In this document: piece after piece, positions 9,823 to 52,470 of the stretch
Numbering within the stretch: the first letter of the stretch is position 1
Layout of the letters: each line of letters starts with the position of its first letter
From: Desulforamulus reducens MI-1
GTDB taxonomy: Bacteria; Bacillota; Desulfotomaculia; Desulfotomaculales; Desulfotomaculaceae
Assembly: GCF_000016165.1 (NCBI RefSeq)
Contig: NC_009253.1
Span: forward strand, 3,297,484-3,361,483
Reading direction: 5' to 3'
DNA length: 64,000 bases
Made by a program: the position numbers and the translations under genes
Notes under the pieces: generated by a model
Told to the model about the DNA's origin: nothing
What the model saw: only the letters and a program-made list of their open reading frames with translations
The model's database searches: none

Positions 9823-10554
9823 TTACAATAGCAATTTACTTTTTTCTATTAATCTCTTATACTCATTTCTGGGAATCTTACCAGTTCTCAACAAATAATC
9901 ACCAAAGTCCTCTGCTGTATCCATACCTTCAGTGCTTATATCCTCCTTTTTAAACACCTTTGCTACGGTTTGAAAAATAATCTTCCAGTCCCTAACAAAT
10001 GAAATGTCATTAATATACTCCAAATCTAATGAAAGTTTTTCTTCCCAGGCCACATTATTCCTACCATTAACTTGTGCCCATCCTGTAAGTCCAGGCAGCA
10101 AACTATGTCGCTGTCTTTGCTCAGGAGTCATAAACACCATATCTCTTACAAGCAGTGGCCTCGGCCCCACAATACTCATATCCCCTTTGAGTATATTGAA
10201 CAGCTCTGGCAGTTCATCCAAGCTTGTGGACCGCAACAACCTGCCAAACTTATTTAGCCTCACTGAGTCTGGAAGCAACTCTCCATTCTCATCTGTCTCA
10301 TCCGTCATCGTTCTGAATTTATAAAGAGTAAATATCTTCTCATTTAAGCCAGGGCGTTTCTGTTTAAATATCACCGGACTGCCTAGTTTGACTCTTACAA
10401 GTACAGCAGTTACCAACAGAACAGGTGCTAACACAATAATTGCGCATAAACACAGGATAAAATCCATTGGCCTTTTTATGTATCTCCTGTACACCCCGCC
10501 ATCATCAATGTGCTGAACAGGGTTGTTTATACTTGATCTGACCTCAGTTTGCAT
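9823..10554 (-). CDS. Initiating sugar-1-phosphate transferase (PglC/WbaP family)
   Basis: Transfers a sugar-1-phosphate to undecaprenyl phosphate, starting each repeat unit at the inner membrane face. The 243-residue protein has one N-terminal re-entrant/membrane segment (RPMDFILCLCAIIVLAPVLL) followed by the polyprenol-phosphate sugar transferase core: FKQKRPGLNEKIFTLYKFRT, LRSTSLDELPELFNILKGDM, SIVGPRPLL and LPGLTGWAQVNGRN. These motifs hold the catalytic Asp-Glu pair. The size fits the short PglC/PglB type, not the large WbaP type. Start ATG has GAGGTG seven bases before it and lies 10 bases from the aminotransferase stop, so the two are translationally close. With the 4,6-dehydratase and aminotransferase upstream, its substrate is probably a UDP-2,4,6-trideoxy-4-amino sugar or its acetylated form (inference). 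Confidence 0.93.
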   Translation of the reverse strand: MQTEVRSSINNPVQHIDDGGVYRRYIKRPMDFILCLCAIIVLAPVLLVTAVLVRVKLGSPVIFKQKRPGLNEKIFTLYKFRTMTDETDENGELLPDSVRLNKFGRLLRSTSLDELPELFNILKGDMSIVGPRPLLVRDMVFMTPEQRQRHSLLPGLTGWAQVNGRNNVAWEEKLSLDLEYINDISFVRDWKIIFQTVAKVFKKEDISTEGMDTAEDFGDYLLRTGKIPRNEYKRLIEKSKLLL

Positions 10555-10564
10555 CTACGTCACC

Positions 10565-11713
10565 TCAGTAGTTACTAGCTATTTCTTTGTAGGCTTTTTC
10601 TTTCACCCACAATCCCTTAATAACATCACATACTCTACTCAAATCCTCATCCGTCATCTTAGTATCAGATGGCAAGCAAACCCCATTTTCGAAGAGCTTC
10701 TTGCTCTCATCGCCACCGATATAATCGTACTCCGCAAAAAACGGCTGCAAATGCATGGGTTTCCAAATTGGCCTTGACTCAATATTCTCCTTCTCCAAAG
10801 CTTCCATTATATCTAAAGGTCTAACTTGTCCACTTAGTGTTATACAACTTAACCAATAATTAGGCTCATTCCATTCATTAATAGGCATGAACTCGACACC
10901 CTCTAATGATCCCAACTCACGTTTATAAAAATCAAAGATATACTTCTTCTTGGCAATTCTCTGATCTAATACTTTAAGCTGTCCTCTGCCTATTCCAGCT
11001 ACTATATTGCTCATGCGATAATTAAATCCTAATTCACTATGCTGATAGTGTCTTGCTTGATCCCTGGCTTGAGTGGCCCAAAACCTAACCTTATTAATCT
11101 TCTCTTCATTATGAGAAACAAGCATCCCACCACCAGATGTGGTAATAATCTTGTTGCCGTTAAAACTAAACACACCATACTCACCAAAAGTCCCGGTATA
11201 TTTTCCTTTATAATAACTACCTAAGGACTCAGCAGCATCTTCAATAACAACCGCATTGTGCTCGTTGCAGATTTCCATAATCTTGTCCATATCAGCTGAT
11301 AAGCCATATAAATGAACAACTAAAACAGCCTTAGCATTTGGGTATTTCTCAAAAGCCTTTTCCAAAGCTACAGGGCTCATGTTCCACGTTTCAAAATCAC
11401 TATCTATAAACACAGGTATTGCATTCTGATAAATTATCGAGTTAGCTGTTGCGGAGAAGGTAAGCGACTGACAGAGCACGATATCCCCCGCTCCCACTCC
11501 AGCAGCTTTAAGAGCCAAATGAATAGCGGCCGTTCCTGAAGATAATGCTGCAGCTGACTTGGCTCCTACCATTGCAGCAAGTTCATTCTCAAATTCATTG
11601 ACGTTCTTCCCTAAAGGAGCAATCCAGTTGGTATCAAAGGCTTCCTTTATATATTGCATTTCGTAACCCTCATCACTCATATGGGGTGAAGAGAGGTAAA
11701 TTCTATCTCCCAT
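10565..11713 (-). CDS. DegT/DnrJ/EryC1-type sugar aminotransferase (PglE-like)
   Basis: A pyridoxal-phosphate enzyme that converts a UDP-4-keto-6-deoxy sugar to the 4-amino sugar in the cytoplasm. The 382-residue protein shows family features in order: YLSSPHMSDEGYEMQYIKEA, ALSSGTAAIHLALKAAGVG (cofactor phosphate site), VVIEDAAESLGSYYKGKYTG (Asp holding the pyridine nitrogen), and FSFNGNKIITTSGGGMLVS, with the Schiff-base Lys in NGNKIITT. The FNGNK form is typical of the PglE/LegC branch. The start is an ATG with a GGAAG site. It forms a unit with the sugar transferase that follows. Together with the CapD-type dehydratase at 12.7-14.6 kb it fits synthesis of a bacillosamine-like sugar, though no PglD acetyltransferase is visible here. 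Confidence 0.93.
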   Translation of the reverse strand: MGDRIYLSSPHMSDEGYEMQYIKEAFDTNWIAPLGKNVNEFENELAAMVGAKSAAALSSGTAAIHLALKAAGVGAGDIVLCQSLTFSATANSIIYQNAIPVFIDSDFETWNMSPVALEKAFEKYPNAKAVLVVHLYGLSADMDKIMEICNEHNAVVIEDAAESLGSYYKGKYTGTFGEYGVFSFNGNKIITTSGGGMLVSHNEEKINKVRFWATQARDQARHYQHSELGFNYRMSNIVAGIGRGQLKVLDQRIAKKKYIFDFYKRELGSLEGVEFMPINEWNEPNYWLSCITLSGQVRPLDIMEALEKENIESRPIWKPMHLQPFFAEYDYIGGDESKKLFENGVCLPSDTKMTDEDLSRVCDVIKGLWVKEKAYKEIASNY

Positions 11714-11803: not shown

Positions 11804-12285
11804 AAACACTCGTTCAATCTATCTCGCATACTCACTTCCTAATCTCCATTCAATCTTTTATCTCCCAAATATTCCGTTTTTCTAGCGTTTTCTACCCTAT
11901 CTGAGGCATTTTATCCGTTTAGCATCACCCAAGCAGACTATCATGTGCTTTAGACTAGAACACCTGTTCTCTATACAGCTTGCTCACTTCCGTATGTTAA
12001 TTCAATATTTTTCTATTTATGCAACATATTGTATGTCTTCTTTTTTAACCGCAATATATAGTATATGGTTCGATTTTTTTATCTCTTTCACATATTCATA
12101 TGCCCAATCTCGATTCAATCACGTTGCCCAAATGCCCATATTTTCTAAATACTTTACAAAAAGTCTGGAACCCTTGATATGACTGAACTCAGAGAGTCAC
12201 TCCTAGCTAGAATTGTCGTTTCTCTACGTTCACTCAATCACACAAACTTCCCCAATCTATCCCTCTAAATTTCCTATCTAAAATA
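11804..12285. other. Long C/T-rich, G-poor spacer
   Basis: This stretch between the pilin-like gene and the aminotransferase gene is poor in G on the plus strand, so a minus-strand transcript through it would be rich in A and G. I see no gene-like frame; the one plus-strand frame of about 79 codons has no family features. It would form part of a long leader if transcription runs from the pilin or dehydratase gene into the aminotransferase gene. Confidence 0.5.
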
Positions 12286-12723
12286 TCACAGATACGGCAC
12301 ACTTCCACCCTTATCATTGTTTTCATCATCATCCCTTCTAGTAGGATGCACGCTACATTGAACCTTCCCATCTACATACCTAATATCACCTTGCTTAGGA
12401 CATATATTAACCCCATAATCTTGCAAATATTGAGCAAAAGCTACCTCTGAGTGAATACCATTTCCTTCACTCAAATGCACCTCATACATCCTCTCCAATT
12501 TTAAACAATTAGTATTGCAAACATCTTTCTTAGTTCTTTCTACATACCCAAATAAGTAAGTAACTGCTATCGAAATCAAGATAGTCATCATAGCGATCAC
12601 TGCTATGATTTCGACTAATGTAAATCCCTTATCATAAACCTTTTTATTTCTATTTTCACTTATAACATTTTCAAACAAAAATCGAACATCCAAAACAGGA
12701 CACCCCCACTTGGCACTTCTCAC
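12286..12723 (-). CDS. Type IV prepilin-like protein
   Basis: A small protein with a class III (prepilin) signal: after a basic leader ending NKKVYDKG comes FTLVEIIAVIAMMTILISIA, with Gly at -1, Phe at +1 and Glu at +5 as needed for cleavage by the prepilin peptidase. The roughly 110-residue mature part is hydrophilic and has four Cys residues (NTNC, NIC, VQC and one in KKDVC), so disulphides are possible. It resembles GspG/ComGC-like pseudopilins in size. The longest start is GTG at 12721-12723 with no good ribosome site; TTG at 12691-12693, with GGGGGTG seven bases upstream, may be the true start. It stands alone, 18 bases after the dehydratase gene, with no pilus assembly genes nearby. Function unknown. 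Confidence 0.75.
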   Translation of the reverse strand: MRSAKWGCPVLDVRFLFENVISENRNKKVYDKGFTLVEIIAVIAMMTILISIAVTYLFGYVERTKKDVCNTNCLKLERMYEVHLSEGNGIHSEVAFAQYLQDYGVNICPKQGDIRYVDGKVQCSVHPTRRDDDENNDKGGSVPYL

Positions 12724-12740
12724 CCCAAGTCCGGCGTGCC

Positions 12741-14582
12741 CTAAGCCGTCCTGCCCTCCACATACAGCACCAACTCCGGCATCACCCGCAACAACCTGCC
12801 AAAAATCTCCTGGTGCTCCGTTACTTCCCTCTTCTCCAGCTTCAGCAGTTCCTGCAGCAGCACTGCCTCATCAATCTCCACCGGCTTTGCCTCAAAAATC
12901 CTTTTGTGCTTGGTGCTGGAGGAACCCTCTTCAGCCGTCAGCAATTCCTCAAAAAGTTTTTCCCCTGGACGGATGCCGGTATATTTAATCTCAATATCCT
13001 TCCCTGGCTCAAAGCCAGATAGCTTTATAAGGTTAGCCGCCAAATCCACAATCTTAACCGGTTCCCCCATATCCAGCAGGAAAACCTCCCCACCCTCGGC
13101 CATGGCACCAGCTTGAATCACCAGTTGCACTGCTTCCGGGATGGTCATAAAGTAGCGGGTCATATCCGGGTGAGTCACCGTAACAGGACCCCCCCGGGCA
13201 ATTTGTTCTTTGAAGATGGGCACAACGCTACCCCGACTGCCCAGCACATTGCCAAAGCGCACCGCAGCAAACTTGGTATGGGACCCCTTGAACAAATTCT
13301 GAATCACCAGTTCTGCTATCCGTTTGGTTGCTCCCATAACACTGGAAGGGTTAACCGCCTTATCCGTAGAGATCAGAACAAATCTTTCGCATCCTACCCG
13401 ATCTGCCATTTCAGCCACATTTTTTGTCCCAAAGACGTTGGTTTTCACAGCTTCATCCGGGTGCATTTCCATCAGCGGCACATGCTTATGGGCTGCGGCA
13501 TGAAAGACAACATGCGGTTGGTGCTTTTCAAAGGTTAGTTGTAGTTTAAAACGGTCCCGAACATCGGCGATCTCTACTTCCAGGGGCACCAGGGGGAACT
13601 TGTCCCGTAACTCCAACCAAATTTTATGGATGCTGTTTTCCCCATGGCCCAGCAGAATAATTTTGGCCGGGTCCATTTGTGCGATTTGGCGGCACAACTC
13701 GGAACCGATGGAGCCACCGGCGCCGGTTACCAGGACCACTTTTCCCTTGAGATAAAGGGATATTTCCTTAAGATCCACCTGTACTGGTTCCCTGCCCAGC
13801 AAATCCTCAATCTCTACAGGTCGAATTTTACTTATGGAAACATTGCCATTTAAAAACTGGTAAACACCCGGTAGGATCTTAACCTCTCCCACCGTATCCT
13901 TACAGAACTGAATAATATCACGCATACTTTTTCCGGCAACCGAAGGCATAGCAATGATAATTTCATCTATGTTATGTTTACATATTAATGAAGGAATACT
14001 TTCTCTGCCGCCCAGTACAGGCAGATCATAAATACTCAGGTGGTGTTTCTTGGTATCATCATCGATAAAACCAATAACCGGTTGATTGCCGTTGTAGTGA
14101 TTTTTATATTCTCTGGCCACCAGGGCACCGGCGGAACCTGCACCATAAATCAAAGCTCTTTTGGGAGTTCCCATTCTGACATATCCTTTTTTCGCTTTAT
14201 ACTCAACATACAGTCGCCAGGCAAACCTGGAACCGCCAACAAAAATAATGGCAAAGGCCCAAAAGGATAAAATTGTTTTTCCTAAGTGAGGTTCATCTAT
14301 AAAATGGGTGAGGATAAAAAATAAGAGGCTTACTAACGAAACAGATTGAATAATGGTAAGTAATTCTCCGGTGCTTGCATAGGCCCAAACACGGTGGTAT
14401 AGCTTGGAGCCATAAAAAACAAGTAAAATAACCGGTGTAGCCAGAAGAAAACCCCGCATGTCGGCCAAGTACTCCTGGGTAAATTGGCCGTGATAATGAA
14501 TATAGCAGGGAATCAAAAAGGCCAGATTTACTAAAACTGCGTCACAGAGCATTAATAAAGGTATTCTAAATTTGTTGGTCAT
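12741..14582 (-). CDS. Membrane nucleotide-sugar 4,6-dehydratase (FlaA1/PglF/CapD family)
   Basis: Converts UDP-GlcNAc to a UDP-4-keto-6-deoxy sugar using tightly bound NAD. The roughly 613-residue protein has four N-terminal membrane segments (about residues 8-120), then a CoA-binding-like Rossmann domain (RALIYGAGSAGALVAREY), and a C-terminal extended short-chain dehydrogenase domain starting GKVVLVTGAGGSIGSELCRQ. Its active-site region reads RFVLISTDKAVNPSSVMGAT: the usual Tyr of SDR enzymes is replaced by Met in the form known for PglF/WbpM proteins, followed by the catalytic Lys of GATKR. Length matches the long PglF/WbpM type. ATG at 14580-14582 has GGTGG five bases before it and is preferred over the ATG at 14594. 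It is the first gene of the minus-strand glycan block, divergent from a deacetylase gene. Confidence 0.92.
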   Translation of the reverse strand: MTNKFRIPLLMLCDAVLVNLAFLIPCYIHYHGQFTQEYLADMRGFLLATPVILLVFYGSKLYHRVWAYASTGELLTIIQSVSLVSLLFFILTHFIDEPHLGKTILSFWAFAIIFVGGSRFAWRLYVEYKAKKGYVRMGTPKRALIYGAGSAGALVAREYKNHYNGNQPVIGFIDDDTKKHHLSIYDLPVLGGRESIPSLICKHNIDEIIIAMPSVAGKSMRDIIQFCKDTVGEVKILPGVYQFLNGNVSISKIRPVEIEDLLGREPVQVDLKEISLYLKGKVVLVTGAGGSIGSELCRQIAQMDPAKIILLGHGENSIHKIWLELRDKFPLVPLEVEIADVRDRFKLQLTFEKHQPHVVFHAAAHKHVPLMEMHPDEAVKTNVFGTKNVAEMADRVGCERFVLISTDKAVNPSSVMGATKRIAELVIQNLFKGSHTKFAAVRFGNVLGSRGSVVPIFKEQIARGGPVTVTHPDMTRYFMTIPEAVQLVIQAGAMAEGGEVFLLDMGEPVKIVDLAANLIKLSGFEPGKDIEIKYTGIRPGEKLFEELLTAEEGSSSTKHKRIFEAKPVEIDEAVLLQELLKLEKREVTEHQEIFGRLLRVMPELVLYVEGRTA

Positions 14583-14853
14583 CTTTACCACCATTTCTAA
14601 GGCATTTTAGCATACCAACAAAGATGTCTTTAGGCCCCTGCCCCCTAGGATTTATTTCCTGCATAACGGGAACAAAAAAACTACTTTTCTACAAAAGCAG
14701 CAGTGACATAATTTAATTTATTGGTTTTTAAAACCTTTAAAAGTCACTTTTTTATCGGGTACCCTATAAAATTTATAAAGCTCTACGTATACTAATTTTC
14801 AGTAATATTTTGATAATATTAGTAATTTTTCCTGCTTTTTATTGTTAAAATAT

Positions 14854-15020
14854 TTCGACCTATTTCGTGTAATAGGACTAAATATCTACCCCTCTATGTC
14901 GAACGCTAGGACTTTTATCTTATAACAACTGACAAATAGGCGATGTCATTCTGTCGAAACATTATTAATTAATGTATCTTGGCTGTTTCATGCTTTCCAA
15001 TCAAGCGCATTATTCGACAA
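14854..15020. promoter_or_regulatory. Cluster of Spo0A-box-like sites
   Basis: Three exact matches to the 0A box core TGTCGAA lie within 125 bases: 14897-14903 and 14952-14958 on the plus strand, and 15013-15019 on the minus strand (extended to TTGTCGAA with 15020). A fourth, imperfect one (GGTCGAA, minus) is at 14854-14860. The consensus TGNCGAA is that known for Spo0A of Bacillus and Clostridia. The sites lie in the divergent region between the dehydratase gene (start 14582) and a polysaccharide deacetylase gene (start 15100), so either or both may respond to phosphorylated Spo0A. Matching is by eye. Confidence 0.5.
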
Positions 15021-15099
15021 TGGTTTATGGTTAAAACCCCACATAATACCAACCCCTTTGAAATATATTTTTTTATATGTTTCAAAAGGAGTTGGCAAT

Positions 15100-15894
15100 G
15101 TGGTTATTTATTTGGGCAAGTCCACCATTAATTATTTAATCTGTGGTCTTTTGTTAATGGCCCTGTTGGTAGGGGCTGTTTCCTATAGTACCCTTACTGC
15201 TTCCAAAGGAGTTTCGGTGGAGCAGTGGCTGCGGGATGGCCAGGTGATTAAGCAGGTAAGCACCTCTAAAAAAGTGGTGGCCCTCACCTTTGACGATGGC
15301 CCAAGTGAGCTCTATACCTCTAGGATTCTGGATGTTCTGAAACAGAACGAAACCAGGGCTACTTTCTTTGTGGTGGGGAAACGGGCAGAAAAATATCCGG
15401 CAGTGATTAAACGAATGGTAACAGATGGGCACGAGGTGGCAAACCATACTTATACCCACCCTCTGTCCCCTGTAAAGTCGGCAAAACTGACCAGAGAATT
15501 AGATAAAACCGATGATATTGTCTATGGTATCATCGGTCGGCATACCCAGTATTATCGTCCACCAGGTGGAAAGTGCACCCATTCCATGATCGACCCAGCC
15601 GTTGATAAGGGTTATAAAGTGATTCTCTGGACCAATCGGGAAGATCCCAAGGATTTGTCCGACCCGGGGGTTCCGCAAATTGTGTCCCAGGTGGTGGACT
15701 ATGTACGGAATGGTTCCATTATTATTTTGCATGACTGTGGCGGGGACCGGAGCCAGACGGTGGAGGCTTTGCCCCAAATTATCCAGGGGGTACAGGAGAA
15801 GGGGTATGTCTTTGTGACAGTCAGTGAACTGCTGCGGGATAGTAATACGGTGCCGGCCATTGAGGAGTTTCGCATGGAGAATTGGGTGGAATAA
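15100..15894 (+). CDS. Membrane-anchored polysaccharide deacetylase (PdaA/PdaB-like, NodB domain)
   Basis: A carbohydrate esterase family 4 protein that likely removes acetyl groups from peptidoglycan or a related polymer outside the membrane. After one N-terminal membrane segment (INYLICGLLLMALLVGAVSY) the NodB domain shows all motifs: ALTFDDGPS (catalytic base and metal Asp), HTYTHPLS (metal His pair), RPPGGK, and IIILHDCGGD with the C-terminal His. Length fits spore-associated deacetylases. A frame from TTG 15058 is open, but GTG at 15100-15102 is preferred because AAAGGAG ends eight bases before it. Spo0A-like boxes upstream point to sporulation-linked expression. Cortex or cell-wall substrate is inferred, not shown. 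Confidence 0.88.
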   Translation: MVIYLGKSTINYLICGLLLMALLVGAVSYSTLTASKGVSVEQWLRDGQVIKQVSTSKKVVALTFDDGPSELYTSRILDVLKQNETRATFFVVGKRAEKYPAVIKRMVTDGHEVANHTYTHPLSPVKSAKLTRELDKTDDIVYGIIGRHTQYYRPPGGKCTHSMIDPAVDKGYKVILWTNREDPKDLSDPGVPQIVSQVVDYVRNGSIIILHDCGGDRSQTVEALPQIIQGVQEKGYVFVTVSELLRDSNTVPAIEEFRMENWVE

Positions 15895-15904
15895 CTTGGG
15901 GGGA

Positions 15905-16056
15905 TAGTTTTTGGGGTCAGCTGGTTTTTGGTGGTTCTTTCTCTGGGGGGTCAGACCCCCTGGGGTTTGGATTATGAGTCCCCTAACCAACAAACCAACT
16001 TTCCAACTAACCAACTGAAGTTGGAAAGTTGGTTTGTTGGTTTGTTGGTTAGGGAC
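15905..16056. repeat. Mosaic intergenic repeat copy with large palindrome
   Basis: This copy fills the gap between convergent deacetylase genes. The left part (about 15909-15965) holds GGGGTCAGCTGGTTTTTGG, TGGTGGTTCTTTCTCT and the core GGGGGGTCAGACCCCC. The right part (15978-16056) is a near-perfect palindrome of CCAAC words against GTTGG words, flanked by GTCCCCTAACC and GGTTAGGGAC; the right arm has one extra 8-base unit. It could terminate transcription from both sides although no long T-run follows. Confidence 0.85.
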
Positions 16057-19845: not shown

Positions 19846-20049
19846 CTTTTAGCCGTCAGCCTTCAGCCGTCAGCCTTCAGCTTTTTTTGCATGATTTGCT
19901 TTGGGGTTAGCTAGGTTTTGGTGGTTCTTGCTTTGGGGGTCAGACCCCTCAGGATGCCGGGCTTTGGGGGCGGGGTCAGACCCCCGGTTGTTTGCTTTGG
20001 CCCAAGGCCCACAGCTCATGGCCCATGGCTAGACCCAATAGGAATACCC
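19846..20049. repeat. Mosaic intergenic repeat copy (near full length)
   Basis: From left to right: heptads AGCCGTC/AGCCTTC repeated four times, TTTTTTTGCATG, TTTGCTTTGGGGTTAGC, TTTTGGTGGTTCTTGC, the double core GGGGGTCAGACCCCTCAGG...GGGGCGGGGTCAGACCCCC, then GGTTGTTTGCTTTGG, five heptads of the GGCCCAA/GGCTCAT type, and the tail GACCCAATAGGAATACCC which runs into the stop codon of the HAD phosphatase gene. One of the best copies for building a consensus. Confidence 0.9.
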
Positions 20050-20887: not shown

Positions 20888-21130
20888 TGCTTTTAGCTGT
20901 TAGCTGTTAGCCGTTAGCTTTTTTGCATGTATTTCTTTGGGGTTAGCTAGGGTTTGGTGGTTCTTTCTCTGGGGGTCAGACCCCTCAGGGTGCCGGGCTT
21001 TGGGGGCGGGGTCAGACCCCCGTTGGTTTGCTTTGGCCCACAGCTCATTCCAACTTCCAACTTTCCAACTTCCAACTTTCCAACTTCCAACTTTCCAACT
21101 TCCAACTTTCCAACTTCCAACTTTCCAGCT
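20888..21130. repeat. Mosaic intergenic repeat copy with 15-base tandem array
   Basis: Starts with heptads of AGCTGTT/AGCCGTT, then TTTTTTGCATGTATTTC, GGGGTTAGCTAGGGTTTGG, the double GGGGTCAGACCCC core and CGTTGGTTTGCTTTGGCCC. From about 21048 to 21128 a tandem array of TTCCAACTTTCCAAC (15 bases, an alternating 7+8 unit) is repeated about five times. It ends about 20 bases beyond the uvrC stop codon. Frames across the array encode monotonous KVGSW repeats and are not genes. Confidence 0.9.
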
Positions 21131-29903: not shown

Positions 29904-32774
29904 TTATGCTATGATTGATGAAACTTCGCCGTTCTCCAGGGCCTGTAGGGTGCGCTGGCGGTCTCGCTCCAGCACTGGCTTTAGGAAATGGCCGGTGTAG
30001 GAGGCAGCTACCTGACAGATTTCTTCCGGAGAGCCGGTTGCCACTACGGTTCCTCCTTTGTCGCCACCCTCAGGACCCAGGTCGATGATATAATCGGCGG
30101 TCTTAATAACATCCAGGTTGTGTTCGATGACCACCACGGTGCTGCCATTGTCCACCAGACGGTGCAGTACTTCCAGCAGTCGAGCAATGTCAGCAGTGTG
30201 CAGGCCGGTGGTGGGCTCGTCCAGGATGTAGATGGTCCCTCCATTGCTGCGTCGACTCAACTCGGTGGCCAGTTTTACCCGCTGGGCCTCCCCGCCGGAA
30301 AGCTCCGGTGCCGGTTGACCCAGACGCACGTAGCCCAGACCCACATCCTGCAGGGTCTTTAATCTGCGGTGAATTTTGGGAATGTTAGCAAAAAACTCCA
30401 CCGCCTCATCCACTTCCATACTCAGTACATCGGCAATGCTTTTGCCTTTATATTTTACTTCCAGGGTCTCCCGGTTGTAGCGCAGTCCTTTGCAGATTTC
30501 GCAGGGTACGTAGACATCCGGTAAGAAGTGCATTTCAATTTTTATGATACCGTCTCCTTGGCAGGCCTCACAGCGGCCCCCTTTGACGTTAAAACTAAAG
30601 CGTCCGGCTTTGTAGCCCCGCACCTTGGCCTCGGGCATCTGGGTGAAGAGTTCCCGAATGTCGTTAAAAACCCCGGTATAGGTGGCAGGGTTGGATCTGG
30701 GGGTACGACCAATGGGAGATTGGTTTACATCTATGACCTTTTCCAGGTGTTCAATGCCCTCGATGCCGCTGTGTTCACCGGGTTTGCTTTTGGCCCGGTG
30801 CAGTTTTTGGGCCAGGGATTTATAAAGGATTTCGTTAATCAGGGTACTCTTACCGGAACCGGAAACCCCGGTGATACAGACAAAACCACCCAGGGGAATC
30901 TCCACATCAATCCCCTTCAGGTTGTTTTCGGTAGCCCCCTTAATGACCAAACTCTGTCCCTTGCCCAGGCGTCGACTGAGGGGTACCGGGATAAATTTCT
31001 TACCACTAAGGTACTGGCCGGTGAGGGACTCCGGTACTTGCATAATGTCTTCCATGGTCCCTGCGGCCACCACCTGGCCCCCCTGACGACCTGCCAGAGG
31101 GCCAATATCAATGATGTGGTCCGCCACCCGGATGGTATCCTCGTCGTGTTCCACCACAATGAGGGTGTTGCCCAAATCCCGTAGGCGTTCCAGGGTGGTT
31201 ATGAGTCTTTCATTATCCCGCTGGTGCAGACCGATGCTGGGTTCGTCCAGAATGTAGAGAACACCCATAAGACCGGAACCAATTTGGGTAGCCAGCCGAA
31301 TCCGCTGGGCCTCTCCCCCGGACAGGGTCCCGGCGGAGCGTCCCAGCGTTAGATAATCCAGGCCCACATTAACCAGGAAACCCAGTCGTTCGTTAATTTC
31401 CTTGAGGATTTGCCGGGCAATCATGCGTTCCCGCTCGGTGAGGTCCAGGTTGTTAAAGAATTTCAGTGCATCGGCTATGGAAAGGGAGGTTATATCTACA
31501 ATATCTTTCCCCCCAACCTTCACAGCCAGGGCCTCGGGCTTTAACCTGGCACCCTTACAACTGGGGCAGGGTTTAATGCTCATGTATTTTTCAAACTCTT
31601 CTCGCATGGCTTCCGATTGGGTTTCCCGGTAACGCCGGGAGAGGTTGCCAATAATTCCTTCAAAGGGTACTTCGTAATGGTGGGTGTGGCCGTAGCTATC
31701 GGTATAGTCAAATTTAACTTTTTCCTGGCCGGTACCGTAGAGAATCACTTTCATGTGTTTGGTGGAAAGATTCTCCACCGGCGTATCCAGACTAAAATCA
31801 TATTGTTTTGCCAGGCCGGATAGGTAGGCTGCGGCAATGTTCCCCTTGTGCCAGCCCTCAATGCCTCCTTCCCGGATACTTTTGCTTTTATCCGGCATAA
31901 TCATATCCGGGTCAAACTCATGGTTAATCCCCAGTCCGGTACAGGCGGGGCAAGCTCCGTGGGGATTGTTAAAGGAGAACAGCCGGGGACTAATTTCACT
32001 GATGTTAATGCCACAGTCGGTGCAGGCAAAGTTTTCGGAAAAGGTATATTCCTCCCCATCAATCACTGCGGCAATGACAATGCCTTCACTTTGTTTGAGG
32101 GCTGTTTCCATGGAGTCCGCCAGGCGTTTTTCAGTGCCGGGGCGAAGAATAATGCGATCCACCACAATCTCGATGTTGTGTTTCTTTTTTTTGTCCAGCT
32201 GAGGAACTTCGGATAGATCGTAAATTTCTCCATCCACCCGAACCCGCACAAAACCATTGCGCTTAATGTCTTCGAGGATCTTAACATGCTCTCCCTTTTT
32301 ACCCCTAACCACCGGGGACAGAAGTTGCAGCTTGGTGCCTTCGGGCAGTGCCATCAGTTGATCTACCATTTGCTGTACGGTCTGCTGAGTGATAGGCTGG
32401 CCGCATTTGGGGCAGTGGGCCCGGCCCGCCCGGGCAAAAAGCAGCCTCAGGTAGTCGTAAATTTCCGTTACGGTACCCACTGTGGAGCGAGGGTTATGGC
32501 TAGTGGTCTTTTGGTCAATGGAAATGGCCGGCGAAAGCCCTTCTATATAGTCCACATCGGGTTTGTTCATCTGGCCCAGAAACTGCCGGGCGTAGGCAGA
32601 AAGGGATTCCACATAGCGACGCTGACCTTCGGCGTAGATGGTGTCGAAGGCCAGGGAGGATTTACCAGAACCGGACAGACCGGTTACTACCACCAGCTTG
32701 TCCCTAGGGATTTCCACATCTATATTTTTCAAATTATGGGACCGGGCACCCTTGATGAGTATTTTGTCTTGCAT
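29904..32774 (-). CDS. uvrA: Excinuclease ABC subunit A
   Basis: Damage-recognition ATPase of nucleotide excision repair. The 956-residue protein has two ABC modules: Walker [21 protein letters not shown] (about 28-47) and [20 protein letters not shown]; signatures [20 protein letters not shown] and [20 protein letters not shown]; and zinc sites [17 protein letters not shown] with [10 protein letters not shown], and [11 protein letters not shown] with [10 protein letters not shown]. The [20 protein letters not shown] stretch is diagnostic. Length is normal for the family. Start ATG follows AAGGAG by 11 bases. uvrB lies just upstream but is separated by about 500 bases of repeat and promoter sequence, so the two are probably not one transcript. 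Confidence 0.98.
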
Positions 32775-32825: not shown

Positions 32826-32912
32826 GTAGTTTGCAATCCGTTGACCGTGGCCATGGGCCTTTTTTACATGCTTTGCTTTGGGGTCATTTTGGCCTTGAGC
32901 TTTGGGCTGGTT
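32826..32912. repeat. Partial mosaic repeat in the uvrA leader
   Basis: TGGCCATGGGCC, TTTTTTACATGCTTTGC, TTTGGGGTCATTTTGGCC and TTGAGCTTTGGGCTGG are words of the mosaic element without its GC-rich core. It lies between the predicted uvrA promoter and the uvrA start codon, so it would be part of the 5' leader. Confidence 0.7.
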
Positions 32913-32966: not shown

Positions 32967-32980
32967 CGAACATTTGTACT
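32967..32980. promoter_or_regulatory. LexA-box-like half-conserved palindrome
   Basis: CGAACATTTGTACT resembles the Gram-positive LexA (DinR) box CGAACxxxxGTTCG, with one half exact and the other differing. It lies nine bases upstream of the candidate uvrA -35 box. Nucleotide excision genes are usual SOS targets, but the right half is weak. Confidence 0.35.
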
Positions 32981-32990
32981 ATTTTTGTAA

Positions 32991-33272
32991 GGCAGAAAGT
33001 TGGAAAGTGGAAAGCAGAAAGGAGAAAGTAACCAACGGCAATCTGACTCCGCCACACTTAGCCGTCAGCTTTTAGCTTTTAGCTTTCTACTTTCTGCTTT
33101 CTGCTTTCTAGGTTTTAGTGGTTCTTTCTCTGGGGAGTCAGACCCCTCAGGGTGCCGGGCTTTGGGGGCGGGGTCAGACCCCCGTTGGTTTCCTTGGGCC
33201 CAAGGCCCACAGCTCATGGCCGACCCCAGAGAAATACTTAGCCGTCAGCTTTCTGCTTTCCAACTTCCGCTA
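32991..33272. repeat. Mosaic intergenic repeat copy (longest heptad arrays)
   Basis: Begins GCAGAAAGTTGGAAAGTGG, has TTAGCCGTCAGC, then AGCTTTT-AGCTTTT-AGCTTTC-TACTTTC-TGCTTTC-TGCTTTC in strict 7-base register, GGTTTTAGTGGTTCTTTC, the double core GGAGTCAGACCCCTCAGGG...GGGGTCAGACCCCC, heptads GGGCCCA-AGGCCCA-CAGCTCA-TGGCCGA, GACCCCAGAGAAATAC and a second TTAGCCGTCAGC. It ends within a few bases of the uvrB stop codon. Confidence 0.9.
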
Positions 33273-33275
33273 TAC

Positions 33276-35303
33276 CTAATACTCTATCTCCGGTATTGCT
33301 GGCTTGATGTTCTTCTCTCCCCTAAGCTGCAGCCGTAGCTCAATCAGGGCATCTCTAAGCTGGGCTGCCCGCTCAAATTCCAGGTGCTTGGCGGATTCTT
33401 TCATTTCTTTCTCCAGCTTAGCAATCATCTTCTTCAGCTCGGTTTTTGTTAGCTTACCCGCCTTGCTCTGGGCCACATAGGGTGCTTTTTCTTCAGCCGC
33501 CCGGGTGGCTTCAATGACATCCCTGATGGCCTTGCGAATGGTTTCCGGGGTAATATTATGTTTACGGTTATACTCCATTTGAATCTTGCGGCGTCGGTTT
33601 GTTTCTCCGATGGCTTTCTTCATGGAGTCGGTCATTTTGTCTGCATACATGATCACCCGGCCCTCTGCATTACGGGCAGCCCGGCCGATGGTCTGGATCA
33701 GAGAGCGTTCGGAACGAAGATAGCCTTCTTTATCGGCATCCAGAATGGCCACCAGGCTTACTTCCGGTAGGTCTAAGCCCTCCCTCAGCAGGTTAATGCC
33801 CACCAGGACATCAAAGGTACCCAGGCGCAGATCCCGCAGGATTTCCATCCGCTCCATGGTATGAATATCCGAGTGCAGGTAACGAACCCGCACGCCATTT
33901 TCTTTAAAGTAGTCGGTGAGGTCTTCGGCCATTTTTTTCGTTAGGGTGGTTACCAGCACCCTTTCGTCCCGCTCTACCCGCAGGCGAATTTCTCCCAATA
34001 AATCATCAATTTGCCCCTTGGTGGGCCTGATAAATATTTCAGGGTCTATCAATCCGGTGGGACGAATAATCTGTTCCACGATTTGCTCTTGGTGTTCAAA
34101 TTCGTATTTACCCGGTGTGGCCGATACATAAATCACTTGATTGACTTTTTCTTCGAATTCTTTGAACTTCAAGGGTCGGTTATCCAGGGCTGAGGGCAGG
34201 CGAAAGCCGTGCTCCACTAGGGTTGTTTTTCTTGAACGGTCCCCTTCGTACATACCACCAATCTGTGGTACTGCCACGTGGGACTCATCGATGATTAACA
34301 GCCAGTCTTCGGGAAAGAAGTCCAGCAGGGTAAAGGGTGACTCTCCGGGGGCACGTCCTGTGAGATGCCTGGAATAGTTCTCAATGCCCGAACAAAAACC
34401 CACTTCAGCCATCATTTCCAGGTCATATTGGGTACGCTGCTGCAGGCGTTGGGCTTCCAATAATTTATCGGCAGCCCGCAATTCCTGTAGCCTCTGCTCC
34501 AGCTCTGCCTCAATGGTGGTAATGGCTCTTTTCATGTTATCTTCGGCAGTTACGAAGTGGCTGGCAGGGAAAACAGCAATATGTTGGCGTTGACCCAGAA
34601 TTTCACCGGTGACAACATCGATTTCCAACAGACGGTCCACTTCATCTCCAAACAATTCCACCCGCAGGGCCCTTTCACTGGCGTTGGCGGGAAAAATTTC
34701 AATGACATCGCCCCGTACCCGGAACTTACCCCGGCTAAAGTCAATGTCGTTTCTTTCATATTGAATATCTACCAGCTTGCGCAGGATGGCATCCCGGTCG
34801 TAGGTACCGCCCACCCGCAGGGATAGGACCAGATCCCGGTAGGTTTCTGGGTTACCTAAACCGTAAATGCAGGAAACACTGGCTACAATAATTACATCCC
34901 GCCGCTCCAACAGCGCAGTGGTTGCTGAGTGACGCAGTTTATCAATTTCGTCGTTCAGTGATGAATCCTTTTCAATATAGGTATCGGTATGGGGAATGTA
35001 GGCCTCGGGCTGGTAGTAATCAAAGTAACTAACGAAATATTCAACGGAGTTTTCCGGGAAAAATTCTTTCATCTCACTACACAGCTGGGCTGCCAGGGTT
35101 TTGTTGGGTGCTAATATTAAGGTGGGGCGCTTAACCTCTTGAATGATGTTGGCCATGGTAAAGGTTTTCCCTGTACCGGTGGCCCCCAATAGTACCTGGT
35201 GTCTCAAGCCCTTATCAATGCCTGCCACCAGTTTTTCAATGGCCCTGGGCTGATCGCCCCGGGGGCTAAAGTCAGACTTCAACTTAAATTCCAAGGAGTT
35301 CAC
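33276..35303 (-). CDS. uvrB: Excinuclease ABC subunit B
   Basis: Damage-verifying helicase-like protein that receives DNA from UvrA and recruits UvrC. The 675-residue protein has Walker [19 protein letters not shown] (about 38-55), the beta-hairpin region [20 protein letters not shown], helicase motifs ([80 protein letters not shown]) and a C-terminal UVR domain (about 630-665, [20 protein letters not shown]). The GTG at 35301-35303 overlaps AGGTG; TTG three codons later, with AGGTGA six bases before it, may be the true start. An extended -10 promoter lies about 20 bases upstream. Confidence 0.98.
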
Positions 35304-36574: not shown

Positions 36575-36862
36575 GGGGAGTTGGGCAGTTGGAAGGTTGG
36601 AAGGTTGGAAGGTTGGATAGTAGTTGTTGATTTGGCTCATGGCTAAAAGTTGCACTGCCACACTAGAAGTCAGACACCTGGGGTTAACTTGAAGAGCAAA
36701 TCCCCCAGGGTTACCTTTTTTCACCGGGGAGTCAGACCCCTCAGACTGCCGGGCTTTGGGGGCGGGGTCAGACCCCCTGGGCTTGACAAACTTTCCAGGG
36801 CTTGACTAAGCTCCCAAACTTTCCAACTGTCCAACTTTCCAACTGTCCAACTTTCCAACTCA
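36575..36862. repeat. Mosaic intergenic repeat copy with two octad arrays
   Basis: From left: GGTTGGAA repeated three to four times (36588-36617), GGCTCATGGC, the double core GGAGTCAGACCCCTCAGAC...GGGGCGGGGTCAGACCCCC and a right array of CCAACTGTCCAACTTT with a 16-base period (about 36818-36862). It begins six bases beyond the stop codon of the PDZ protein gene. The left and right arrays are complementary in type (GTTGG against CCAAC). Confidence 0.88.
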
Positions 36863-38129: not shown

Positions 38130-38260
38130 TTTAGCCTTCAGCCATCAGCTTTTTTTGCATGCTATAATTTGGGGTCATTTGGCCTTGGGTTTTTACTCAC
38201 AGCTCATGGCCCATGGCCTGACCCATAAGAAATACCCCTAAGGCTAACGGCTGACGGCTA
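38130..38260. repeat. Mosaic intergenic repeat copy without GC-rich core
   Basis: TTAGCCTTCAGCCATCAGC, TTTTTTTGCATGC, TTTGGGGTCATTTGGCC, heptads CTCACAG-CTCATGG-CCCATGG-CCTGACC, the tail CATAAGAAATACCCCTAAGG, then GGCTAAC-GGCTGAC-GGCTATT in 7-base register ending two bases from the ctpA stop codon. Shows that the core can be absent while flanking words remain. Confidence 0.85.
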
Positions 38261-38262
38261 TT

Positions 38263-42409: not shown

Positions 42410-42538
42410 GGGGTCAATTGGCCGTGAGGCTTAGGGGTAGTTCTTTTGGGTCCTTTTATTTAAACTCATGGCTCACTGCTCATAGCTCAGGGCCTGACCC
42501 CAAAGTTCTATCCCCCAAGCCCATAGCCTGACCCTATA
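42405..42538. repeat. Mosaic intergenic repeat copy, heptads only
   Basis: TTTTGGGGTCAATTGGCCG, GAGGCTTAGGGGTAG, then strict heptads CTCATGG-CTCACTG-CTCATAG-CTCAGGG-CCTGACC, TCTATCCCCCAAGCCC, and ATAGCCTGACCCTATA ending at the stop codon of the transketolase C-terminal subunit gene. No GGGGTCAGACCCC core. Confidence 0.85.
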
Positions 42539-52377: not shown

Positions 52378-52470
52378 ACCTTTGGGGTCTATCCGTCAGC
52401 CTTCAGCTTTTAGCCTTTAGCTTTCTGCTTTCCACTTTCTGCTTTGGGCGGGGTTTTACCCCCGCCCCTT
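52378..52470. repeat. Mosaic intergenic repeat copy, variant core
   Basis: GTATTACCTTTGGGGTC, heptads ATCCGTC-AGCCTTC-AGCTTTT-AGCCTTT-AGCTTTC-TGCTTTC, TTTCTGCTTTGGGC and a different palindrome GGGCGGGGTTTTACCCC followed by CGCCCC. It ends near the DUF2922 stop codon. The rightmost copy seen in the window. Confidence 0.85.

Follow-up and report, generated by a model that had tools for sequence, protein, structure and literature searches.

Two genes of Desulforamulus reducens MI-1, for which the names uvrB (33276-35303, minus strand) and uvrA (29904-32774, minus strand) are our own reading of the conserved proteins, are separated by DNA in which runs of seven-base words drift in sequence and keep their step. 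This raises the question of how such runs are laid down and of what holds them together, the spacing alone or the letters as well. A preliminary description of the window, as the whole stretch of 64,000 nucleotides is called here, had quoted four strings of such words, and all four (AGCTTTT-AGCTTTT-AGCTTTC-TACTTTC-TGCTTTC-TGCTTTC and three others) were found in it. The features of the locus, of the remainder of the window and of one rRNA stretch (L005) are collected in Table 1.

Table 1. Repeat features of the window and of the rRNA stretch L005, with positions in the stretch named.
Feature	Stretch	Position	Strand	Remarks
Heptamer array GAAAGNN (NNCTTTC on minus)	Window	32994..33030	-	Period 7, 5.1 copies; hairpin arm with 33060-33108
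Array AGCCGTC AGCTTTT AGCTTTT AGCTTTC TACTTTC TGCTTTC TGCTTTC	Window	33060..33108	+	Skeleton RGCYNTN
Facing array, minus strand GGCCATG AGCTGTG GGCCTTG GGCCCAA	Window	33194..33221	-	Skeleton scan; faces 33060
Outer words AGCCGTC AGCTTTC TGCTTTC	Window	33240..33260	+	By uvrB end
Dispersed repeat core with two GGGGTCAGACCCC-type palindromes	Window	33118..33240	+	18 genome matches
Left terminal-repeat-like sequence, diverged GTATTTCTTTGGGGTC	Window	32870..32885	+	
Right terminal-repeat-like sequence GACCCCAGAGAAATAC	Window	33222..33237	-	
Whole hairpin region	Window	32985..33275	+	ssDNA fold -63.1 kcal/mol, z -5.8 vs dinucleotide shuffles
GGCTAAC GGCTGAC GGCTATT	Window	38241..38262	-	RGCYNTN reverse complement
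CTCATGG CTCACTG CTCATAG CTCAGGG	Window	42465..42492	-	RGCYNTN reverse complement
Octamer array CCAACTNT	Window	36808..36860	+	Perfect 16-base double unit
Octamer hairpin	Window	15985..16050	.	CCAACNNN arm vs GTTGGNNN arm
TTCCAAC TTCCAACT x5.3	Window	21048..21127	+	Perfect 15-base double unit (7+8 step)
RGCYNTN array	Window	52393..52445	+	Seven units
AGCCGTC AGCCTTC array	Window	19851..19884	+	14-base double unit
TTCGANN arrays	L005	10112-10228; 12649-12768; 13388-13420 with 13787-13819; 15439-15557		Predicted long stems

The seven-base step and the RGCYNTN skeleton

Plain base autocorrelation is too blunt a measure of the step because signals from lag 3, homopolymers and repeat families are superimposed on it, and exact words and arrays were therefore counted in the intergenic sequence of the window and 60 evenly spaced 20 kb stretches (1.26 Mb in total, one third of the closed genome of 3,608,104 bp). 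With low-complexity words dropped, exact 6-base repeats formed 156 runs at lag 7 against 64 in dinucleotide shuffles, 137 against 66 at lag 14 and 115 against 61 at lag 8, lags 9-11 lying at chance level or barely over it. Gapless arrays numbered 86 at period 7 (2 in shuffled sequence), 52 at period 14 (0), 16 at period 8 (3), a weak peak, and 7 at period 16 (5), and the remaining periods within 5-24 held between 0 and 15, with the maximum at 21, itself a multiple of 7. The quoted words and their step are thus real and genome-wide. With the window excluded, 78 period-7 and 9 period-8 arrays are left, 41 of the 78 being made of rRNA words (TTCGANN) and 37 spread over 20 stretches, which rules out an excess confined to the handful of quoted loci. 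The peaks predicted at 7 and 8 fared differently, the array periods 7 and 14 being clear and period 8 weak. An exact four-unit search of 31 genomes found the octamer CCAACNNN in this genome alone with six of its seven matches inside the window, so that most of the period-8 excess is local.

Most of the heptamer words belong to a single degenerate pattern. Expectation-maximisation without a given motif, applied to 93 distinct period-7 arrays out of three species, placed 69 in two components that are both RGCYNTN, shifted or reverse-complemented, and 16 in a component of TTCGANN words. CTCATGG and GGCTAAC show the AGCTTTY skeleton in reverse complement and, with 69 of 93 arrays in one pattern, the three are therefore one family on two strands. 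As such the statement that different word families share the step was mostly mistaken, only the octamer being separate, and this octamer may have grown out of GTTGGTTT, which is included in the local repeat core. The arrays are mostly intergenic, 57 of 69 lying outside open reading frames of 100 aa or more. It had also been argued that coding is excluded because three does not divide the step. The argument is unsound, a heptamer array being a 7-residue repeat in any stop-free frame, and a TAACTGA array does read in this way (PMC4679880).

The drift between units is far from even. Across 239 pairs of neighbouring units the mismatch rate was 0.38 at R, 0.07 at G, 0.10 at C, 0.35 at Y, 0.59 at N, 0.05 at T and 0.10 at the last base, so that an array follows a degenerate skeleton rather than one exact word, with neighbours differing at position 5 in 59% of cases. 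G, C and T are fixed, N is free, and R and Y vary almost only by transitions (79/92 and 80/84 changes, together 159/176). The last base is stable inside one array and may be any of the four letters across arrays.

The same spectrum of RGCYNTN words recurs in three further families of the order (f5, f13, f17) and in a second genus of the organism's own family, most other families surveyed having none. RGCYNTN read backwards, the control in this survey, gave at most single matches there. Within one genus the number of four-unit matches per genome runs from 0 (G004, G007) through 6 (G005) and 74 in D. reducens itself (G000) to 404 (G008). Reversed-pattern matches number 18 in G013 and 85 in G038, and a further heptamer family, TNYCGNN, is therefore recognised there.

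Several features of these arrays have been described elsewhere. The (GGGANTN)n repeats of Xanthomonas and the GGGGA(C/T)T repeats of Nostoc likewise have a 7-base step with positions 1-4 and 6 conserved and positions 5 and 7 variable, differ in copy number between close relatives and include some inverted pairs, but are G-rich, quadruplex-forming and for the most part not described as hairpin arms (PMC4692102). The TAACTGA repeats of Beggiatoaceae, Cyanobacteria and Bacteroidetes and the cyanobacterial STRR are also intergenic direct heptamers; TAACTGA is however one exact word with nearly no inverted pairs, one indirect repeat having been reported (PMC4679880). Features shared with STRR are the period-7 excess over shuffles and, in G008, whole-unit length polymorphism of left arms.

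Facing arms and stable-RNA genes

The hairpin-arm layout and the parallel arrays in rRNA genes were absent from the preliminary description. RGCYNTN arrays followed within 500 bp by their reverse complement form 34 facing pairs, with 3 pairs pointing outward, and for 41 of 69 arrays a partner on the opposite strand lies no more than 500 bp away, compared with 5% for a random intergenic position. At the uvrB-uvrA locus the array at 32994..33030 forms an inverted repeat with 33088-33108 (95% complementary). The loops between facing arrays vary in content and some hold palindromic repeat cores; the cores of G000 and G008 differ and the arms share the skeleton. In G038, which belongs to another family, facing AGCYNTC arrays enclose unrelated loops (L100), and no copy of the terminal repeat was found in that stretch. 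The heptad arms are therefore the common element, with the cores as passengers or vehicles.

Eight of the 18 genome matches to the repeat core of the locus lie within ~28 kb here on the same strand. Cores of the GGGGTCAGACCCC type cluster at 15.9-43.7 kb of the window (G000:C1:3313414-3341130) on one strand, the octamer arrays cluster likewise, and this same-strand clustering looks like local spread.

A second word, TTCGANN, plays the corresponding part in rRNA genes. In stretch L005 the 16S gene (10041-11659) and the 23S gene (12066-15659) exceed their models by about 86 and 669 bases, and at least four inserts, each closed by a stem of TTCGANN arrays, are present in the 16S and 23S genes of this genome. 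The third insert, inside 23S, encodes at 13412-13786 a 124-residue protein of the PF05635 family (23S_rRNA_IVP, E 9e-34). The interiors of the smaller inserts (GGGTC...GACCCCAAAGRAATRC) resemble, by eye, the intergenic repeats at their inner end (GTATTYCTTTGGGGTC). Across the operons of G000 the inserts are identical bar one base, with no variation in length. In having an S23-type open reading frame (PF05635) and a long closing inverted repeat the largest 23S insert resembles the intervening sequences exemplified by the Coxiella IVS (PMC4990558). A departure from the Coxiella type is that TTCGANN arrays make up the closing stems and that the smaller inserts look, by eye, like intergenic cores. 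The rRNA inserts tie the heptad-arm architecture to intervening sequences.

In G038 and G024, hairpins of TTCGANN also lie between tRNA genes (L101:5303-5414, L103:4267-4379), and the word resembles the 7-base T-loop of tRNA. The idea that TTCGANN is limited to stable-RNA genes was dropped, as it adjoins a ribosomal-protein gene, named by eye, in G001 (L104) and lies elsewhere in G022. An expanded 5S rRNA gene has been reported at 361,111-361,315 of NC_009253.1 (PMC7812874) and was found at that position here (L011). In the window and L005 no known RNA family other than rRNA and tRNA scored above its gathering threshold, and weak microRNA matches from lax searches of two loci were set aside as chance hairpin matches.

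Gain and loss of arrays and units

Arrays are present or absent at the same junction in sister species. Among nine congeners the uvrB-uvrA junction is no longer than 36 bp and free of heptads in G001, and G004, G005 and G007 have none, while G008, G003, G006, G002 and G000 each carry their own heptads, the words differing. In most sister species the uvrA fragment used shows 93-96% identity, and in most a LexA-box-like sequence, CGAACATTTGTAC (32967-32979), is kept beside the array site. In G001 (L108), where uvrB and uvrA are ~36 bp apart, the LexA-box-like promoter region of most congeners is absent.

Units are gained and lost whole. The G008 repeat core has 41 matches, with copies at unrelated sites, and in five such copies the cores are 98-100% identical (about 99%), differing at 0.9% of positions with gaps of one base. 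Their left arms differ at 1.1% of positions with gaps of 7 and 14 only, which brings whole-unit slippage in these arms close to being directly seen. The right arms differ at 9.0% of positions, tenfold the value for the core, with a mixed list of gaps that reflects the inclusion of unaligned tails in the excised segment, and the few unit differences, read by eye, fall at R, Y and N. The fast right arm would be explained most simply by words taken over from other arrays. Perfect multi-unit runs were found for AGCCATC in G001 and G009 and for the 15-base double unit of the window, the latter being evidence of recent slippage. The G008 repeat family ends in TTAGGGGATGATGCG and GTGTCGCATTACCGTAGTTATGCGACAC (L165-L169).

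Heptamer repeats of this sort, a letter pattern like that of Xanthomonas and a paired layout like that of Geobacter (see below) are already known. As far as the literature was searched, the novel elements are the skeleton, its positional constraint, the unit-sized differences between near-identical copies, the spread of the skeleton over several families within an order and the heptad arms of rRNA inserts. Within one genus there are hundreds of arrays, very recent copies that differ in unit-sized steps, sister species whose sites are filled or empty and a skeleton with a constraint that can be measured letter by letter, and slippage, protein binding and RNA-stem selection can therefore be tested against one another.

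Accounts of the skeleton

The reading that we favour, tentatively and at rather less than an even chance, is copying by slippage or template switching, in which the skeleton serves as a pairing code. A growing DNA end would detach and pair again, either shifted by one or two units or on the opposite arm, the latter permitted by the near self-complementary RGCY (or TCGA). Only the letters engaged in re-pairing would have to match, such that G, C and T would stay fixed, R and Y would change by transition via G.T or A.C mispairs and N would be free, and a word losing its anchor letters would no longer be copied. The constraint would then be the copying mechanism itself, a benefit to the cell not being required, and mobile repeat cores could carry the arrays to give their wider spread. 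In favour of such a pairing code are the gaps of 7 and 14, the fast right arms with their R, Y and N differences, the perfect runs, the position-specific variation, the skeleton of lone arrays, the 34:3 ratio of facing to outward pairs and the core-less hairpins of L100. Against it, slippage copies words exactly whereas position 5 is near random inside an array, so that slippage would need array-to-array conversion or rapid mutation at N beside it; the recurrence of the same skeleton, rather than of any word, in several families goes unexplained; and the octamer CCAACNNN lacks a self-complementary tetramer. Slippage or selection on spacing had been proposed from the start. Unit-sized gaps and perfect runs bear out the former, and a constraint does exist but falls on the letters too, not on spacing alone, so that slippage and some constraint survive from that interpretation and the separate families and the coding argument do not.

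The main rival, though unlikely, is that a DNA- or RNA-binding protein recognises one RGCYNT or TTCGA core in every 7 bases, with the arrays as clustered sites. Fixed anchors around a free N resemble a binding motif, G, C and T are held as strictly in the 28 lone arrays as in the 41 paired ones, the skeleton recurs in f1, f5, f13 and f17, and paired tandem sites of 7-8 bases in Geobacter metallireducens provide a precedent (PMC2700814). In the extract of that account drawn on here, the sites fall into classes 1-3 (GTTGCTYN, TCTCCGTS[Y] and MTYCTGA) and are proposed as sites of a putative IHF/HU-type regulator (PMC2700814). The resemblance extends to tandem degenerate units in opposite-strand pairs of variable spacing, tens of copies, a mostly intergenic location and insertion sequences near some pairs, but the words are different and the extract describes neither rRNA inserts nor a position-by-position analysis (PMC2700814). 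No candidate protein was found in the present work, and the coming and going of arrays at the same junction and copy numbers from none to hundreds inside one genus speak against such a reader. Likewise, the arrays show no strand preference relative to neighbouring genes, and divergent spacers are under-represented among those with arrays (5/110, compared with 38/416 tandem and 13/82 convergent), a distribution that suits tolerated insertions better than a role in gene control.

It is a rather unlikely extension of the pairing code that the heptamer words are themselves replicating units, able to copy themselves inside an array, into the opposite arm and from locus to locus, so that a process at the level of the word, and not the host or a transposase, would maintain the skeleton across families and build the rRNA inserts.

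Selection for an RNA hairpin, in which a transcript stem would be needed as a terminator, an mRNA stabiliser or a processing site for RNase III or intervening sequences, is quite unlikely. The facing polarity of the arms would suit it, as would the very strong stems predicted (folds of G008 elements as RNA reach about -200 kcal/mol) and the arms that close rRNA inserts, one of them encoding the 23S_rRNA_IVP protein. However, own arms pair no better than arms swapped in from other elements, that is, there is no covariation, and upkeep through covarying stems was rejected on this ground. Since lone arrays keep the skeleton just as strictly, stem pairing alone is not what maintains it, and the lack of strand preference also counts against a transcript. 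For the favoured pairing code, equal pairing of own and swapped arms is as expected if any word pairs with any other.

Bacterial MITE and REP elements are short, palindromic, dispersed and without genes, as are these repeats. Their arms differ from those seen here, which are degenerate 7-base arrays whose length differs between near-identical copies. That the arrays are mere internal parts of one transposing family of this kind, shared by descent only, is improbable. The cores have terminal repeats of the GTATTTCTTTGGGGTC type (70 matches against about 9 expected from shuffles) and G008 has 41 related cores at unrelated sites. These ends form only 7 inward pairs in the 1.26 Mb, and no autonomous parent with the same ends was seen in the sampled third of the genome. 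The same heptads forming core-less hairpins in other families already contradict this account, as do G000 and G008 arms that share a skeleton around different cores, and letters that vary by position. A Y1/RAYT transposase was considered as driver and rejected, there being no link between Y1 genes (G000 1, G008 2, G005 2) and arrays (74, 404 and 6).

To our knowledge the over-representation of heptamers in bacteria, reported since 2007, has no accepted cause. Heptamers exceed expectation among the simple repeats of many bacteria, polymerase slippage having been suggested without detailed study (PMC4692102). Plain slippage followed by neutral drift of unconstrained letters would fit the unit-sized gaps and perfect runs, but as a full account it is highly improbable and is refuted by the uneven spread of differences over the seven positions (uniform drift, chi-square p 2e-54), a pattern that recurs in other species and families.
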